From: Candidatus Saccharimonadota bacterium
Lineage (GTDB): Bacteria > Patescibacteriota > Saccharimonadia > Saccharimonadales > UBA4665
Direction: 5' to 3'
NCBI GenBank assembly: GCA_028289245.1
Contig: JAQGGT010000004.1
Coordinates: 186,001-250,000, forward strand
DNA length: 64,000 nt
Within the stretch, counting starts at the first letter, position 1, and the number at the start of each line of letters is the position of its first letter. Shown here piece after piece: positions 10,178 to 36,155 of the stretch. Both the position numbers and the translations under genes were made by a program. Below the pieces are notes generated by a model that was not told the DNA's origin, searched no databases, and worked only from the letters and a program-made list of their open reading frames with translations.

Positions 10178-10215
10178 AGTATATGAAATTAGCACTCTAA
10201 GGTCAAGAGTGCTAA
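10178..10215 (-). promoter_or_regulatory. clpP promoter with CIRCE operator
   Basis: The CIRCE inverted repeat TTAGCACTC-N9-GAGTGCTAA, the binding site of the repressor HrcA, is perfect at 10189-10215. On the minus strand the -35 box TTGACC (10201-10206) lies inside the CIRCE spacer and the -10 box TATACT (10178-10183) follows after 17 bp. A bound repressor would therefore cover the -35 box. It lies between the end of tig and clpP, so clpP can be transcribed independently. Confidence 0.93.
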
Positions 10216-12002: not shown

Positions 12003-13279
12003 GCCACCGAGAGCGCCGCCGGAATATCGACCAGTGCAAGTTGCTGCTCCTGCCCGGTTTTGAGATTTTTAAGTGTAAACTGCTGGCTGGTCAGCTCACT
12101 TTCACCCACCGCCAGCGCCCAGGTAATGCCCTTTTTATCGGCGGCTTTAAGTTGGTCACCAACTTTGCGTCCCGAAATATCGACCATGACGTTACAAGCC
12201 CGACGCAGCTCGGCAATTACCGGCTGGGCCGCGGCTGCAACATCACCTATTAAAATGACAGCCAGGTCGATTTCGGTCCGCAGCTCGGGCAGCAAGTTGT
12301 GGCGCTCCAAGAAATTTTCGAGCGTCGCATCGCCCAGGCCGAAGCCGGCTGTCGGTACCGGATCGACACCAAACAAGCCCACCAGGCCGTCATAGCGCCC
12401 GCCGCCCATCATCGAGCGGTTATTTTCAGGGTCGGTGTCGGCAACTTCAAACACAATATCGGTGTAGTAGTCGAAGCCGCGCATAATGGTGATGTCAAAG
12501 CGCGCATTGCTGATGCCGGCTGCCTGCAACTGCGCAAGGACGCTAGTGATACCACTGACAGCGGGCGATGCGCGGAGCGCTTCGGGTAGTTCCGCGAGGG
12601 TGGACGCTGCCAATAAGTTCTTGACTGTCTCCAACTTTTCATGGCCGGCGATGGCAATGGCTTGTTCGTCAAAAGCTTCCGGCGCGAGTTTGTGCATGCG
12701 GTCTATCAACTTCGCCAGGTTGTGCGCTTGTGGCTCGTCGAGTTCGAGATAATCGTGTAAAGCGGTGTCCATTAATTTACGACTATTGATTCGTATTTCA
12801 TACATCTCGGGAGTAGCTCCGAACGACTTATAAATAGCATCGGCCAGTTCGATCAACTCCAGCTCGGCAGCCACCGTAGTTATCCCAAAGATGTCGACGT
12901 TAAGCTGCCAGTGCTCGCGCAGGCGGCCGCGCTGCGGACGTTCATAGCGCCACAAGTTGGGAATGCTATACCAGCGCACCGGATAGCTCAGCTCCTGGCG
13001 CTTAGCAGCGACCATCCGGCTAACCGTCGGGGTCATCTCCGGACGAATAACTACTTGGCGTCCACCCCGGTCAGTAAAGCTATAGGTCTGCTCGTTAACA
13101 ATCTCTTCGCCGGTTTTAGCGGTGTAGAGCTCTAGGGCCTCGAGAATCGGGGCGTCATATTCTTCGTAACCAAAGCGTTCGACGGTTTGGCGCAGTTTAT
13201 TAAACATGTATTTTTGGAGACGTTTATCTTCCGGGTAGAAATCCCGGGCGCCTTTGTAGGGTTGGGTTGAAAGTGCCAT
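11999..13279 (-). CDS. hisS: Histidyl-tRNA synthetase
   Basis: A class II aminoacyl-tRNA synthetase of 426 residues that charges tRNA-His. It shows class II motif 1 to 3 regions, including PEMTPTVSRM (motif 2 region), the histidine-specific segment MGGGRYDGL in the C-terminal third of the catalytic domain, and an anticodon-binding domain at about 330-426. The stop TGA overlaps the next gene's start as ATGA. The gene to its right ends 8 bp upstream, so a polycistronic unit from 13875 to 11550 is likely. Confidence 0.97.
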   Translation of the reverse strand: MALSTQPYKGARDFYPEDKRLQKYMFNKLRQTVERFGYEEYDAPILEALELYTAKTGEEIVNEQTYSFTDRGGRQVVIRPEMTPTVSRMVAAKRQELSYPVRWYSIPNLWRYERPQRGRLREHWQLNVDIFGITTVAAELELIELADAIYKSFGATPEMYEIRINSRKLMDTALHDYLELDEPQAHNLAKLIDRMHKLAPEAFDEQAIAIAGHEKLETVKNLLAASTLAELPEALRASPAVSGITSVLAQLQAAGISNARFDITIMRGFDYYTDIVFEVADTDPENNRSMMGGGRYDGLVGLFGVDPVPTAGFGLGDATLENFLERHNLLPELRTEIDLAVILIGDVAAAAQPVIAELRRACNVMVDISGRKVGDQLKAADKKGITWALAVGESELTSQQFTLKNLKTGQEQQLALVDIPAALSVA

Positions 13280-31039: not shown

Positions 31040-31077
31040 ATAATAATAAATTAGCACTCTCAGGTCAAGAGTGCTAA
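31040..31077 (-). promoter_or_regulatory. clpC promoter with CIRCE operator
   Basis: A perfect CIRCE element TTAGCACTC-N9-GAGTGCTAA lies at 31051-31077. On the minus strand the -35 box TTGACC (31063-31068) is in the CIRCE spacer and the -10 box TATTAT (31040-31045) follows after 17 bp. The geometry is identical to that of the clpP promoter at 10178-10215. Confidence 0.93.
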
Positions 31078-31116: not shown

Positions 31117-32331
31117 CTATTCGCCGAAGTCTTCGATGGCTTCGAGCAGACTGTTTTCGAGCTCGCTCTTCTTTTTTAGCTTCGGAGTGATTGGCTTTAC
31201 ACTAGCTTTTTTCTCGGCCGGTGCTGGCTTGGCCGCAACTGGGGCAGCTTCGACGGCCGGCGCGACCGGAGCTTCCTCGACGGGCGCGTGCAGGCGCTCA
31301 GCTTCGATATCCAGCTCATAACCGGTCAGTTTAGAGGCCAAGCGAACATTTTGGCCGCTTTTACCGATGGCAATGCTTAGCTGGTCTTCGGGGACGATGA
31401 CCTTGGCCTTCTTAGCGCCCTCGTCGATCTCGACTTTGGCGACCTTGGTGGGGCTCAAAGCCTCAGCAATGTACTCGGCAGCGTCTTCTTTCCAGACGAT
31501 GATGTCGATTTTTTCCTGCTCACCAACTTCGCTCATGACAGCGTTGACGCGCGTACCGTGACCACCAACGAAGGTGCCAACGGGGTCAACGCCAGGTACG
31601 GTACTGGCGACGGCAATCTTAGAGCGGACACCGGCTTCGCGGGCGATGCCCTTGATTTCGACGGCACCGGACTCCATTTCTGGAACCTCACCGCGGAACA
31701 ACCACTCAATGAATTCTTTATTACCACGAGAGACTACCAGCTGCGGGCCGCGGAAACCGCGTTCCACGTCCTTCAAATAGACCTTGATGCGCTGGCCAGG
31801 GTAGTAACGTTCGCCCTGAATTTGCTCGGAGCGAGGCATGATGCCTTGGGCTTTACCGAGGTCAATGCGGGCAATGTTCCCTTCAACGCGCGCGACCGTA
31901 GCATTAATGACGGTACCAATCTTATCTTCGTACTCGTTCATGACGATCTCGCGCTCGGCTTCGCGCAGGCGCTGCAAAATAACTTGCTTGGCAGTCTGGG
32001 CGGCCACACGGCCAAAGGTCTCAACCTTTTCGTGGATCTCGATCATGTCGCCGATGGCAGCGTTTTTCTTCATGACCTGGGCGTCCTTAAGGCTGATCTC
32101 GTACGCATCTGAGCCAACGCGCTCGACAACTTCCTTAGTGATGTAGGCATCAACTTCGCCGGTATTCAAGTTCATAGTAACCCGAATTTCCTGCTCGCGG
32201 TCGCCGTAGTCACGACGGTAGGCGGCCGCCAGGGCCTGCTCCACGGCTTCTTGCACAACTTCTTCTGGCAAGTTCTTCTCTTCGGCGATGGCCTTGATGG
32301 CCACCCCTAATTGTTTGAAATCTAATTCCAT
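31117..32331 (-). CDS. nusA: Transcription termination/antitermination factor NusA
   Basis: NusA binds RNA polymerase and nascent RNA and modulates pausing and termination. The 404-residue product has an N-terminal polymerase-binding domain, an S1 domain at about 130-200, two KH domains (GVRSKIAV ... GTRVNAVMSEVG and IAIGKSGQNVRLASKLTGYEL) and an Ala/Pro-rich acidic tail instead of extra C-terminal repeats. A clear AAAGGAG lies 5 nt before the ATG. The leader contains a terminator hairpin directly behind a strong promoter, which suggests attenuation. The usual partner genes rimP and infB are not adjacent. Confidence 0.97.
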   Translation of the reverse strand: MELDFKQLGVAIKAIAEEKNLPEEVVQEAVEQALAAAYRRDYGDREQEIRVTMNLNTGEVDAYITKEVVERVGSDAYEISLKDAQVMKKNAAIGDMIEIHEKVETFGRVAAQTAKQVILQRLREAEREIVMNEYEDKIGTVINATVARVEGNIARIDLGKAQGIMPRSEQIQGERYYPGQRIKVYLKDVERGFRGPQLVVSRGNKEFIEWLFRGEVPEMESGAVEIKGIAREAGVRSKIAVASTVPGVDPVGTFVGGHGTRVNAVMSEVGEQEKIDIIVWKEDAAEYIAEALSPTKVAKVEIDEGAKKAKVIVPEDQLSIAIGKSGQNVRLASKLTGYELDIEAERLHAPVEEAPVAPAVEAAPVAAKPAPAEKKASVKPITPKLKKKSELENSLLEAIEDFGE

Positions 32332-32376
32332 AGTTTCTCCTTTTTTAGCTAATCAAGTGTTCAAGTCTCTGATACG

Positions 32377-32400
32377 AAAAAATCCGACCTGCTGGCCGGA
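32377..32400 (-). terminator. Terminator-like hairpin in the nusA leader
   Basis: On the minus strand TCCGGCC (32394-32400) and GGTCGGA (32383-32389) pair over seven positions (one G-U) around a 4-nt AGCA loop, followed by six T (32377-32382). It begins about 7 nt after the predicted transcription start and ends about 45 nt before the nusA ATG. No gene upstream on this strand needs a terminator. Confidence 0.75.
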
Positions 32401-32412
32401 CGGAACACCTTA

Positions 32413-32441
32413 ATCATACGTCAGGACGCCTCAAATGTCAA
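32413..32441 (-). promoter_or_regulatory. nusA promoter
   Basis: On the minus strand a consensus TTGACA (32436-32441) is followed after 17 bp by TATGAT (32413-32418). The predicted transcription start is near 32406, so the mRNA leader contains the hairpin described at 32377-32400 and then the Shine-Dalgarno sequence. Confidence 0.85.
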
Positions 32442-32465: not shown

Positions 32466-32494
32466 TTGTAAATTTGTGCTTTTTATAGTAGAAT
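32466..32494 (+). promoter_or_regulatory. Promoter of the lipoprotein gene at 32501, leaderless type
   Basis: TTGTAA (32466-32471) is followed after 17 bp by TAGAAT (32489-32494); six bases later comes the ATG at 32501. The predicted transcription start coincides with the A of the start codon. Confidence 0.65.
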
Positions 32495-32500
32495 ATATTA

Positions 32501-33028
32501 ATGAAATTATCACCAGACTACGATTCTCAGCACCTCGTCCGCACTACACTAGCCGCCGCTAGCTTCGTCTTACTGGCCGCTGGCTGCGGTGGTGGTACTA
32601 AAGCCGAAGAGGCACCAACCCCTGCTGCTACGGCCGCTGCGCCGACGGCTTCGCCAACCCCAGTGGCATTGCCCTACACCAAAAACCCCGAGTGCAAGCC
32701 CTTCCCGGTCTACGCTCAGAACCGTTGGTTACCGTATGGCACAATCATCCGACGCAGTCCAAGCATCTTAGCTGATAAAATCGGCTCCTATGGGCCCAAT
32801 GAAGTCATTGCCGTCGACGGTGAGTTTACCGGTACAGAAGATGTCTATGCAGACAACCCAGAACCTTGGAATAGCAGGGACTGGTTCCACGTCGCCAATA
32901 ACGGCGGTGGCTATGTTACGTGGGCTGGCGTCCGTGCCACACCTACCGAAAATGATCCTACTCTCAAAGCAGATGGCGGCCCACAAGCCCCAGAGCCGGC
33001 CGAGTGCCGGACTGCGCCTCCGCAATAA
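32501..33028 (+). CDS. Putative lipoprotein with SH3-like segment
   Basis: The 175-residue product has a signal peptide with the lipobox LAAG-Cys (Cys at about 29), followed by a Thr/Ala/Pro-rich linker of about 30 residues. The globular part (about 62-150) has short strands and a SH3-like look (YGTIIRRSPSILADKIGSYGPNEV ... GGGYVTWAGV split by a loop), which is a weak resemblance. It lies divergent to nusA. It should be anchored on the outer face of the cytoplasmic membrane; no enzymatic motif is visible. Confidence 0.8.
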   Translation: MKLSPDYDSQHLVRTTLAAASFVLLAAGCGGGTKAEEAPTPAATAAAPTASPTPVALPYTKNPECKPFPVYAQNRWLPYGTIIRRSPSILADKIGSYGPNEVIAVDGEFTGTEDVYADNPEPWNSRDWFHVANNGGGYVTWAGVRATPTENDPTLKADGGPQAPEPAECRTAPPQ

Positions 33029-33388
33029 TTATTCAAGTTCTTTGGCTGCATCTAATGCGACAAGGCGCGATTCAAGCTCGCTAATGCGGGCTTCAAGGGG
33101 TTGTGTCGCGTATTGGGTCCGTAACTCCGCAGCGCGATCAGAGAGATATGCGCCCACACCTACCATCCCAAGTCCGACGACCACTGAAAGACCATAACAA
33201 ATATTGCTGGCGAGTGTTTCTGTGCCACGGCTCGTCGAGACTGCTTCGACGGTGGTGGCACTTGCTGTAGTCAGGACGCCGGCTATTTTGAACAACATCG
33301 CCGAAGCGCGCGTTAGTTTAACGGTATCTTGCTGCATTTCGGCAAGTAACTGTCCATCTTCATCAGGTACTTCGGGTGTAAGGGCCAT
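33029..33388 (-). CDS. Small membrane protein with coiled-coil tail
   Basis: The 119-residue product has a polar N-terminus, a hydrophobic segment near 30-48, a second at about 62-82 and a C-terminal coiled coil (LEARISELESRLVALDAAKELE, about 98-119, quoted only in part of its heptads). It starts at the ATG at 33388 with AGGAAG about 9 nt upstream. Its stop abuts the end of the convergent lipoprotein gene. No family is recognised. Confidence 0.7.
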   Translation of the reverse strand: MALTPEVPDEDGQLLAEMQQDTVKLTRASAMLFKIAGVLTTASATTVEAVSTSRGTETLASNICYGLSVVVGLGMVGVGAYLSDRAAELRTQYATQPLEARISELESRLVALDAAKELE

Positions 33389-33422
33389 TCGTTTTAACTT
33401 CCTAAGTTATAATTATTTAGAA

Positions 33423-33451
33423 TTTATATATTATATTTGAAAGTTTGTCAA
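33423..33451 (-). promoter_or_regulatory. Promoter of the small membrane protein at 33029-33388
   Basis: On the minus strand TTGACA (33446-33451) is followed after 17 bp by TATAAA (33423-33428). The leader is about 28 nt and carries AGGAAG before the ATG, so this gene is not leaderless. Confidence 0.7.
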
Positions 33452-33452
33452 T

Positions 33453-36155
33453 CTACTTAGGGTACAAATAGCTCTGTGGAATGATCGCCGTCGTGATGCT
33501 CGGGCTGCTCCAGTATAGTTGAATCATCGCCGAACCAGTACCTTCGTAATACTCCAGCTTGATGCTGTAGTACTGGCCAGCGGTCAGGGCAATTTTGCCA
33601 GTATCGGTCTTAGCGGTGTGTTTGGTCCAGTCGTTAATGATCTGCACGCCGTTCACCCACAGCCGCACGCCCTCATCGCTCTTCGTAGAGAAGGTGACCG
33701 TTTCGGTTTTGGCGGCTCGGATACGACCCGTCCAGCGGGCACTGAAATTATCGGATTTTACGGCGGGAGCGGGTGAGCCGGTAGTAAAGTTCCAGTTCAC
33801 CGTTTTTTCAACTCGGCTTAGTGCCTGAGTATTGAAGGCGGTACCGTTGTAGTACACCGCTTGCAAGCCCGTGCCAGCAACGACAGGCGCTGGAGCCACC
33901 ACCAACGATTCGGTGCGGACATTATTGGAGGTATTGTATTCGGTAAAACGATTAGCGTAATTGACGGTGGCCGCGACCGAGTAAGTGCCGGCGACGTTAG
34001 CTTTCCATATTTTGGAGCCAAGCGCACTGGTGGCAGCCGTAATGGTTCGGGATGCTCCCGGTGCCAGACTAGTGGTGCTAGCGTCTGACCAGGTTACCTT
34101 GGTCCCATTAACGGCAAAGCTGACACCAATGATTGTCCCGGCCGGCGTCGGGGCATCGCCACTATTAGTAATGACGGCCGAGAAAGTGACATCATTGCCG
34201 GCGACCACTGAGGTCGGCGACCACGTAATGTCGGTGACTTTCACATCAGGGTACTTGGTGGGCACCGGTACTGGGACCGGTACGGGGACTGGGTCTGGTA
34301 CGGGAGTGGGCGGCGTCGGGACTGGATCGGGTGTGGGCACCGGAACGGGGGTCGGATCAGGAATAGGTGTTGGGTCGGGGACTGGCGTAGGATCGGGAAC
34401 CGGGGTTGGATCCGGAACCGGTACGGGATCAGGTGTGGGCGTTGGATCGGGGACTGGGTCTGGTGTGGGCACGGGCGTCGGGACTGGATCGGGTGTAGGC
34501 ACTGGGTCTGGGGTTGGCGTAGGATCGGGTGTCGGCAGCGGATTCGGATCGGGGACTGGGTCAGGAATGGGCGTTGGATCCGGAATGGGCACCGGATCAG
34601 TCACGACAATCGGGGCGGGCGTCACCACGCCGACACGACCAGAACTTACAAAGCGATAGGTTAAGTCTTGGTTGGGTTGCTGCGCCAATACCGGATACGG
34701 TGAAGTTACGCTGATAGTGCTCAAATCAGCTCGGGTAATCACGGCCGAAATCGTGCCCACGGCCAGCGGGAAAAGTTTGGCATACTGGCCGGCCGGCGCA
34801 TCGTACGTCTGAACCTGACCGCCAATGGTCACGGAGACTGTCGCCGGGGCGGTCAAAAAGGTCAGCGCTTCGACCGTATCCCGCGCTGGGGTGCTGCCCG
34901 AACGTAATGCCATCAGCTTTGTTTGCCCACCTGTCGGCTGGGCAGCGTACGGTTGAATGCGGTGGGACAAGTAGATGGTGTCGCGTTTAATCTCTGGTAG
35001 CGAGCCAGCTTTAAACCACGACAGATAGTATGAAGTCAGATCGAGCAGCGACCAGTTATTATCACGTGAGGGGGCAATCTGAGTATTCTCGGAATAATCA
35101 TTCCAAGTGGGAATTTGGACCCAATCGGCACCACCATTGATGGCAGCTTCCCAGCTAGTTCGATAATTCTCAGAGTTGCCCGCTTCGTCATAAATCGACT
35201 GGTTAGGGCGTTCGTCCTGCGGCGCAACAGGCTGCATCCATATCTTGCCATAGGAATGAGCCGTGGTAATATTGCCCGTCAAATTCGAGTTAGTTGCCAC
35301 GCTGCGGTTGCCCCAGTTGGAAAAACCATAGCTCATCGGGCCGTAGGCGGTGGCCGTGTTAGTGTTAAAGGCCAGAAAACACGGCACAAAAGCCACATCC
35401 ACGCCTTGGTTCTTGAGGGTTGTAATCATTTTGGTCCAAAAGGCCGTGCCATAATCACTCTTACCATTAGTAACGACGGCTTTTGTCTCCGGGTCAAAGG
35501 GAGAAATTACCAGCCGACCATCGTCAAGCCTGTCGAGCGAGCTGCCGTACGTGCCTTTGGCCAAGCCGGCAATCGCATTGGCGAGCGTCACCGGATCGTA
35601 GGTAGCCGAAGCCGTTCCGTCTGGCATGAGCATTAACTTGAAGTTAGGATCAACTTCACTGGCCGCTTGCATCAGATAGGTCAGCCGTGTCCAGTTAGCG
35701 CTGGTGAGGCTCAGCATATCGACCGTAAAACCGTCGAGGCCGGCAGTATCGGCTTGGCTGACTTCGGTTTTTAGGTCTTGCAGCTGCCAGTCGGCGCCCG
35801 TCAACGGTGCGCGGGTCAGGGGTCGGTCGCGTAATAAGCCGCCATACTCGACATGGAGGTAGGGTTTAGTAGCCTTGGTGGCAGCATCAGTATTTTTTTC
35901 GCCGGTGAGGCTCAGGTAATTATTGGTGTAGTAGTCGCTACTGGCGTCTTTATTATCAATCGAGATCGGATACGGCGTGAAATAGTGGGCAAAGACCTTC
36001 TTATTTGAACTTTTAAGTTCCGCTTGCGTGGGGAGATCATTGGGCAGCGGGTTGGTAGTATCGGTAGTATCGGCCTGCGCTGGCAGGGACGGCAGGCTTA
36101 TTGCCGCCAAAAACATTATGCTTGTTATGATGGCGGACAATTTTTTGCGGTTCAT
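33453..36155 (-). CDS. Secreted GH71-type alpha-1,3-glucanase with CARDB and PA14 modules
   Basis: The 900-residue product starts with a signal peptide (about 1-28, ending LPAQA). The N-terminal catalytic region (about 48-395) matches glycoside hydrolase family 71, whose members cut alpha-1,3-glucan: KVFAHYFTPYPIS, LRDRPLTRAPL, AAGLDGFTVDML-like DGFTVDML and VQIPTWNDYSE. A beta domain follows. A Pro-Asp-rich linker spans about 510-632, then a CARDB domain (about 635-755; VTDITWSPTSVVAGNDVTFS) and a PA14 domain (about 758-900; DEGVRLWVNGVQIIND). CARDB and PA14 are common in adhesive or carbohydrate-binding proteins. No LPXTG or surface-anchor motif is seen, so the protein is probably released or held by its own binding domains. 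The similarity I remember best is to actinobacterial enzymes. Confidence 0.88.
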   Translation of the reverse strand: MNRKKLSAIITSIMFLAAISLPSLPAQADTTDTTNPLPNDLPTQAELKSSNKKVFAHYFTPYPISIDNKDASSDYYTNNYLSLTGEKNTDAATKATKPYLHVEYGGLLRDRPLTRAPLTGADWQLQDLKTEVSQADTAGLDGFTVDMLSLTSANWTRLTYLMQAASEVDPNFKLMLMPDGTASATYDPVTLANAIAGLAKGTYGSSLDRLDDGRLVISPFDPETKAVVTNGKSDYGTAFWTKMITTLKNQGVDVAFVPCFLAFNTNTATAYGPMSYGFSNWGNRSVATNSNLTGNITTAHSYGKIWMQPVAPQDERPNQSIYDEAGNSENYRTSWEAAINGGADWVQIPTWNDYSENTQIAPSRDNNWSLLDLTSYYLSWFKAGSLPEIKRDTIYLSHRIQPYAAQPTGGQTKLMALRSGSTPARDTVEALTFLTAPATVSVTIGGQVQTYDAPAGQYAKLFPLAVGTISAVITRADLSTISVTSPYPVLAQQPNQDLTYRFVSSGRVGVVTPAPIVVTDPVPIPDPTPIPDPVPDPNPLPTPDPTPTPDPVPTPDPVPTPVPTPDPVPDPTPTPDPVPVPDPTPVPDPTPVPDPTPIPDPTPVPVPTPDPVPTPPTPVPDPVPVPVPVPVPTKYPDVKVTDITWSPTSVVAGNDVTFSAVITNSGDAPTPAGTIIGVSFAVNGTKVTWSDASTTSLAPGASRTITAATSALGSKIWKANVAGTYSVAATVNYANRFTEYNTSNNVRTESLVVAPAPVVAGTGLQAVYYNGTAFNTQALSRVEKTVNWNFTTGSPAPAVKSDNFSARWTGRIRAAKTETVTFSTKSDEGVRLWVNGVQIINDWTKHTAKTDTGKIALTAGQYYSIKLEYYEGTGSAMIQLYWSSPSITTAIIPQSYLYPK
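34259..34625 (-). repeat. Pro-Asp repeat linker in the GH71 gene
   Basis: About 120 codons repeat short units of the type PDPTP, PDPVP or PVPTP. At the DNA level this gives imperfect tandem repeats of 12-24 bp that on the plus strand read as Gly-Thr/Gly-Ser frames. The units are irregular, as expected for a protein linker that can lengthen or shorten by slippage. Confidence 0.9.

Follow-up and report, generated by a model that had tools for sequence, protein, structure and literature searches.

Leader-mediated control of nusA in other bacteria

Autoregulation by NusA is known by experiment in very few bacteria. In E. coli, NusA represses its own operon, metY-nusA-infB, the leader of which is long and complex and includes metY and rimP. 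The rimP-leader family (RF01770; Naville & Gautheret 2010) is a short, highly conserved terminator without an antiterminator, found before the nusA-holding operon at a stem-to-gene distance of 4-130 nt, and NusA was named as its best candidate effector (PMC2965389). In B. subtilis, where rimP is the first gene and the leader is ~180 nt long (PMC2965389), NusA autoregulates via leader termination, according to the account of Mondal et al. (2016) given in PMC12288461. RNA-seq of the S. agalactiae genes gbs0413-gbs0418 (rimP-nusA-infB) shows intrinsic termination 31 nt after the start site, and feedback by NusA was proposed (PMC4448216). With the rimP-leader, NusA autoregulation in B. subtilis, and the S. 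agalactiae terminator at +31 as precedents, the idea itself is known; what is new in the nusA leader described here is the clade, the signature of the stem in sequence and structure, its conserved non-canonical centre, the rimP-less setting, and the strict anchoring to the promoter. The element is probably a transcription attenuator of nusA that gives rise to an aborted RNA of ~30 nt; both the termination and its likeliest effector, NusA itself, we infer from sequence.

The nusA leader of a Saccharibacteria genome

The window (the whole 64-kb stretch of DNA that was analysed) belongs to a Ca. Saccharibacteria genome with a total size of 1.22 Mb, and contains the following features in and around the nusA leader:

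32436..32441, minus strand: -35 element TTGACA of the nusA promoter (from the sequence; TTGACA-like in 85/92 relatives)
32413..32418, minus strand: -10 element TATGAT of the nusA promoter, after a 17-nt spacer (from the sequence and relatives)
32402..32406, minus strand: short unpaired 5' tail of the predicted nusA transcript (placed by the -10 position; the -10-to-stem distance is constant in relatives)
32382..32401, minus strand: putative terminator hairpin GTCCGGCC-AGCA-GGTCGGAT with a central G.U pair (folding, covariation in 91 sequences, covariance model R1)
32377..32382, minus strand: U6 tract, predicted 3' end of the ~30-nt attenuated RNA (from the sequence)
32332..32376, minus strand: remainder of the nusA leader with the Shine-Dalgarno sequence AAGGAG (length and sequence not conserved)
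31117..32331, minus strand: nusA, 404 aa, with NusA_N, S1, and KH domains (Pfam and NCBIfam TIGR01953, E 2e-113)
33029-33388 and 33453-36155, minus strand: ORFs upstream of nusA

Read along the minus strand, the order is TTGACA-N17-TATGAT-N11-GTCCGGCC-AGCA-GGTCGGAT-TTTTTC, then AAGGAG and ATG, which bears out the succession of consensus promoter, hairpin, six U, Shine-Dalgarno sequence, and nusA start codon described by an earlier sequence-only reading. The promoter agrees with the consensus at 11 of 12 positions, and its +1 is predicted near 32406, 7 nt past the -10. The hairpin does lie close behind the predicted start, as had been claimed: its stem of 8 pairs, including the G.U pair and a 7-bp core, begins 5-6 nt past the predicted +1. 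When folded in isolation, it reaches -12.8 kcal/mol (z = -3.7), which was equalled by 0/200 shuffles, and termination at the end of the U-tract is predicted to leave an RNA of ~30 nt. Rfam riboswitches and leaders gave no match in the window at the gathering score, tRNA excepted, and the weak matches in the nusA leader were all far below the cut-off.

The nusA leader holds the only strict pair of promoter and terminator in the 64-kb window. Over all 1.22 Mb of the genome, lenient criteria gave 17 pairs among 810 promoter-like sites; nusA alone has a near-consensus promoter together with a T-run free of interruptions and a long ORF right behind. At L315:12310-12396 (G000 contig C1), TTGACA-N18-TATAAT stands ahead of a strong terminator that leads into no ORF; this site would yield an orphan RNA of ~45 nt, or shares the terminator of a convergent gene (12390-12992).

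Conservation and spacing among relatives

In the GTDB collection, 38 related genomes and 80 contigs supplied nusA leaders, of which 92 distinct ones were left after removal of duplicates. The signature [C/T]CG[A/G]C[C/A]-loop-G[T/C]CG[G/A] followed by a U-run is present in 92/92, in short form [C/T]CGGCC-loop-GGTCG[G/A] plus U-tract, and a promoter with at least 8 of 12 consensus positions stands ahead of it in 85/92; the sequence-only reading had set conservation of the hairpin in relatives as a test, and the hairpin is conserved together with its promoter-proximal place. A stricter pattern failed on a few leaders, whose loops are longer, whose U-run is broken, or whose hairpin lies farther away. 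Across the 92 leaders, the stem keeps a nearly constant distance from the -10 (13.3 +/- 1.4 nt, range 10-17) but a free one from the ATG (58.9 +/- 30.6 nt, range 20-201), so the position of the element follows the promoter rather than the site of translation initiation. The hairpin is able to abut the Shine-Dalgarno sequence. In genus g51, the U-tract is often interrupted (NNUUUU), which would mean weak termination. A GAGAC motif occurs shortly 3' of the U-tract in 14/92 leaders, and ACAATTTAGA in 6 (near relatives, e.g. L004, L006, L008); these shared motifs could perhaps reflect common ancestry.

Protective 5' stem-loops typically sit 5-10 nt from the mRNA 5' end, and the hairpin likewise lies 5-10 nt from the predicted 5' end, as would suit a stabiliser or a translational-repressor site of the nusA mRNA that acts with no termination. 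This is decidedly unlikely: a translational operator would not be expected to tolerate such variation in its distance from the Shine-Dalgarno sequence and ATG, and the U-run directly after the stem is kept phylum-wide while stem sequences turn over.

Gene neighbourhood

In 66/71 relatives, nusA is flanked directly by a divergent pepN, and in 73/75 by clpC. No rimP was detectable in the window genome, and PF02576 was found in 0/16 relatives versus 10/14 control genomes. The window genome has a three-ORF insertion (32501-36155) between nusA and pepN, comprising a possible lipoprotein, a 119-aa ORF, and a GH71/PA14/CARDB protein. The predicted start of a promoter-like TTGTAA-N17-TAGAAT (32466-32501, plus strand) coincides with the ATG at 32501, which suggests that the mRNA of the possible lipoprotein is leaderless. 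Two CIRCE elements (TTAGCACTC-N9-GAGTGCTAA), at 31051-31077 between nusA and clpC and at 10189-10215, are also present in relatives and suggest that HrcA controls clpC in Saccharibacteria.

The sequence-only reading stated that no upstream gene on the same strand needs a terminator. Such genes do exist in the window genome (33029-33388 and 33453-36155), but they end ~590 nt before the nusA -35, and because of this gap and of the divergent pepN in 66/71 relatives, the hairpin is not needed to end another gene. That the hairpin is an ordinary terminator of upstream transcription, or has arisen by chance, with nusA starting downstream of it, is scarcely credible: all that speaks for it is the presence of same-strand upstream genes in this one genome (33029-36155), and shuffled leaders produce the promoter-hairpin pair in 0.2-1.2% of cases. 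A start downstream of the hairpin, the outcome that the sequence-only reading had named as counting against it, is implausible in 39/92 leaders, in which the stem is 20-45 nt from the ATG and leaves no room for a second promoter; in the leader of the window, no second promoter-like site was found.

Covariation and stability of the stem

In an alignment of 91 sequences, 96.4% of stem cells pair, and 40 cells are changed on both sides versus 16.4 +/- 2.7 in shuffles; the covariation score is 0.252 versus at most 0.071 for slid registers, with 0/500 shuffles equally good. The basal pairs covary (UA to GC on both sides in 28 sequences, the next pair being CG, UG, or UA), while two GC pairs farther in never change. 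At the centre, 83 of the 92 leaders have G.U, 7 have A-U, 1 has G-C, and 1 has A.C, and practically every leader of genus g51 has an A.C, A.G, G.A, or G.G mismatch, or G.U, at this position. These leaders thus retain, very consistently, a predicted weak spot at mid-stem.

The inverted repeat just behind the promoter, at about +6 to +25, might be viewed as an imperfect palindrome in DNA to which a repressor binds, and a known palindromic operator, CIRCE, precedes the next gene, clpC. The covariation and the U-tract pattern argue strongly against such an operator and make it very improbable: a G.U or mismatch at the centre spoils the palindrome of the two arms, the conserved U-tract is on one side only, and the loop varies from 3 to 14 nt among the leaders, which would break operator phasing.

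The sequence-only reading had also implied a weak, NusA-dependent hairpin, and in this it is not backed by energy: leader hairpins and gene-end terminators of the same genomes are equally stable (median -12.0 vs -11.7 kcal/mol, p = 0.95), and the idea of a weak hairpin was rejected as to energy. The B. subtilis rules for NusA-dependent terminators ask for a suboptimal hairpin or an interrupted U-tract; the leader hairpins are like gene-end terminators in energy, yet the weak central pair is kept and the U-tract of g51 is often broken. Neither a competing antiterminator nor a conserved downstream element was found in the nusA leaders, and the helix between tail and downstream sequence had a length of 5.14 versus 5.24 in shuffles. 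The window leader can form an extended 8-bp stem (AGGUGUUC with GAACACUU), which was dismissed as a coincidence of this species because it is not conserved, and across the 92 leaders helices of this sort do not exceed in length those of shuffled sequences.

Specificity for nusA and distribution in the Patescibacteria

A strict pattern (CGGCC-N3..8-GGTCGRN-T5) was searched for in 40 genomes, with the reversed pattern as a control. It occurs in 32/40 genomes with 36 matches, 32 of them in the nusA leader, and the reversed control matched once. Of the four others, none stands ahead of another regulatory gene: they fall inside ORFs, follow a tRNA, or have no clear gene after them. Covariance model R1 found matches in 139/295 genomes of the class at E <= 0.001, nearly always one each, and the best 30 of these, which were inspected, are all 20-100 nt ahead of nusA. 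By these searches, the hairpin is essentially nusA-specific.

The rest of the class Saccharimonadia was sampled, and the layout is kept with diverged stems in genus g51 and other orders, a promoter, hairpin, and U-run being present in 40/50 nusA leaders of other Saccharimonadia. The initial transcribed sequence TATACAGAT between the -10 and the hairpin is conserved in many g51 leaders (L149-L168), and ATACAG occurs there in nusA leaders of some other orders. Under a lenient automatic rule, other classes of Patescibacteria have the layout in 50/71 nusA leaders versus 11/355 shuffles; some of the misses are due to uncertain start codons, and several look positive by eye (e.g. L241, L268, L272). 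The stems in these classes are unrelated (e.g. AAGTG..CACTT, AGGTGA..TCACTT) or have in common an AGTCGG 5' arm only. Control genes with intergenic upstream regions gave 0/148 strict and 3/148 lenient matches, all three being CIRCE operators before clpC; the control set had been cleared of nusA by tblastn, before which 14-46% matched. Few shuffled leaders (about 1-3%) reproduce the order of promoter, hairpin, and U-run. The layout apparently extends to most of the wider phylum. In some genomes of other classes, a same-strand gene lies just upstream of the nusA hairpin, which could there also end that gene.

Across Saccharimonadales, the stem sequence is nearly invariant and its centre non-Watson-Crick, a degree of conservation beyond the needs of a generic terminator. 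This might mean that the attenuator answers to another effector, such as NusG, a ribosomal protein, or an RNA-binding protein, which would recognise the stem CCG-R.N-CC / GG-N-CGG and so control termination or antitermination; NusG of B. subtilis also works at intrinsic terminators (PMC8060035). We consider a different effector unlikely, as the sole gene under the element is nusA in genome after genome, and other classes keep the layout with unrelated stems, so that sequence-specific binding cannot explain the element in general.

Proposed mechanism and implications

By sequence, a predicted intrinsic terminator stands between the promoter and the nusA transcription unit, as in NusA-autoregulated leader attenuators. 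In a NusA-sensing attenuator of this kind, RNA polymerase would start at the strong sigma-70-type promoter and, after ~30 nt, would have the hairpin folded in the nascent RNA and the U6 tract in its active site, where some polymerases would release the ~30-nt RNA and others would read through into nusA. Because there is no alternative (antiterminator) structure and the hairpin-ATG spacing is dispensable, read-through would be set by a trans-acting factor. The likeliest factor would be NusA, which at high levels would stabilise the pause and help the stem to close fully, so that less NusA is made, with the conserved weak central pair as a plausible brake on stem completion. Feedback by NusA is the most economical reading because the terminator is conserved, no antiterminator accompanies it, its spacing from the gene is free, and that gene is nusA; the rimP-leader was interpreted along similar lines. 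The near-invariant stem may leave room for a binder more specific than the general effect of NusA. A literature search for start-site maps or transcript data of Saccharibacteria, related organisms included, returned nothing usable. More tentatively, the leaders may constitute a new, phylum-spanning family of ~30-nt attenuator RNAs, in which the non-Watson-Crick centre of the Saccharimonadia is a NusA-sensing kinetic brake and the nearness of the start site obliges NusA to act at or just after sigma release.

The phylum-wide occurrence of so minimal a form (promoter, ~20-nt hairpin, U-run, gene) in reduced, rimP-less genomes suggests that the feedback is ancient or repeatedly re-invented, the Patescibacteria having retained the layout while the stem sequences turned over. 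The leader would be a very small natural system for the action of NusA at a terminator ~30 nt from the start, with sigma perhaps still bound, and for the effect of a mid-stem wobble or mismatch on factor-dependent termination. The searched literature describes no earlier regulatory RNA element of such a kind in Saccharibacteria, so this would be the first.

Comparison with known systems

The element resembles the rimP-leader in its conserved terminator, its lack of an antiterminator, its free distance to the gene, and NusA as candidate effector. By sequence, it is not a member of RF01770: the covariance model gave no match in the window leader even at E up to 10, and 0/87 Patescibacteria genomes were above the cut-off. 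The rimP-leader stem GGGc(...)gCCC is found in 0/92 Saccharibacteria leaders, in which the 5' arm is C-rich and the centre non-Watson-Crick, and the operon that begins with rimP in the known family here begins with nusA. The E. coli operon is alike in its repression by NusA but different in that its leader is not a single promoter-proximal hairpin, and the rimP-led B. subtilis operon has its ~180-nt leader where the Saccharibacteria terminator starts 5-10 nt past the predicted start site. S. agalactiae is alike in its compact geometry, with a terminator at +31, and in the proposal of feedback. It differs in being a Firmicute with a rimP-led operon and no described conserved stem signature; the present element is conserved across a class and up to the phylum, and the gene after nusA is clpC, separately marked by CIRCE.
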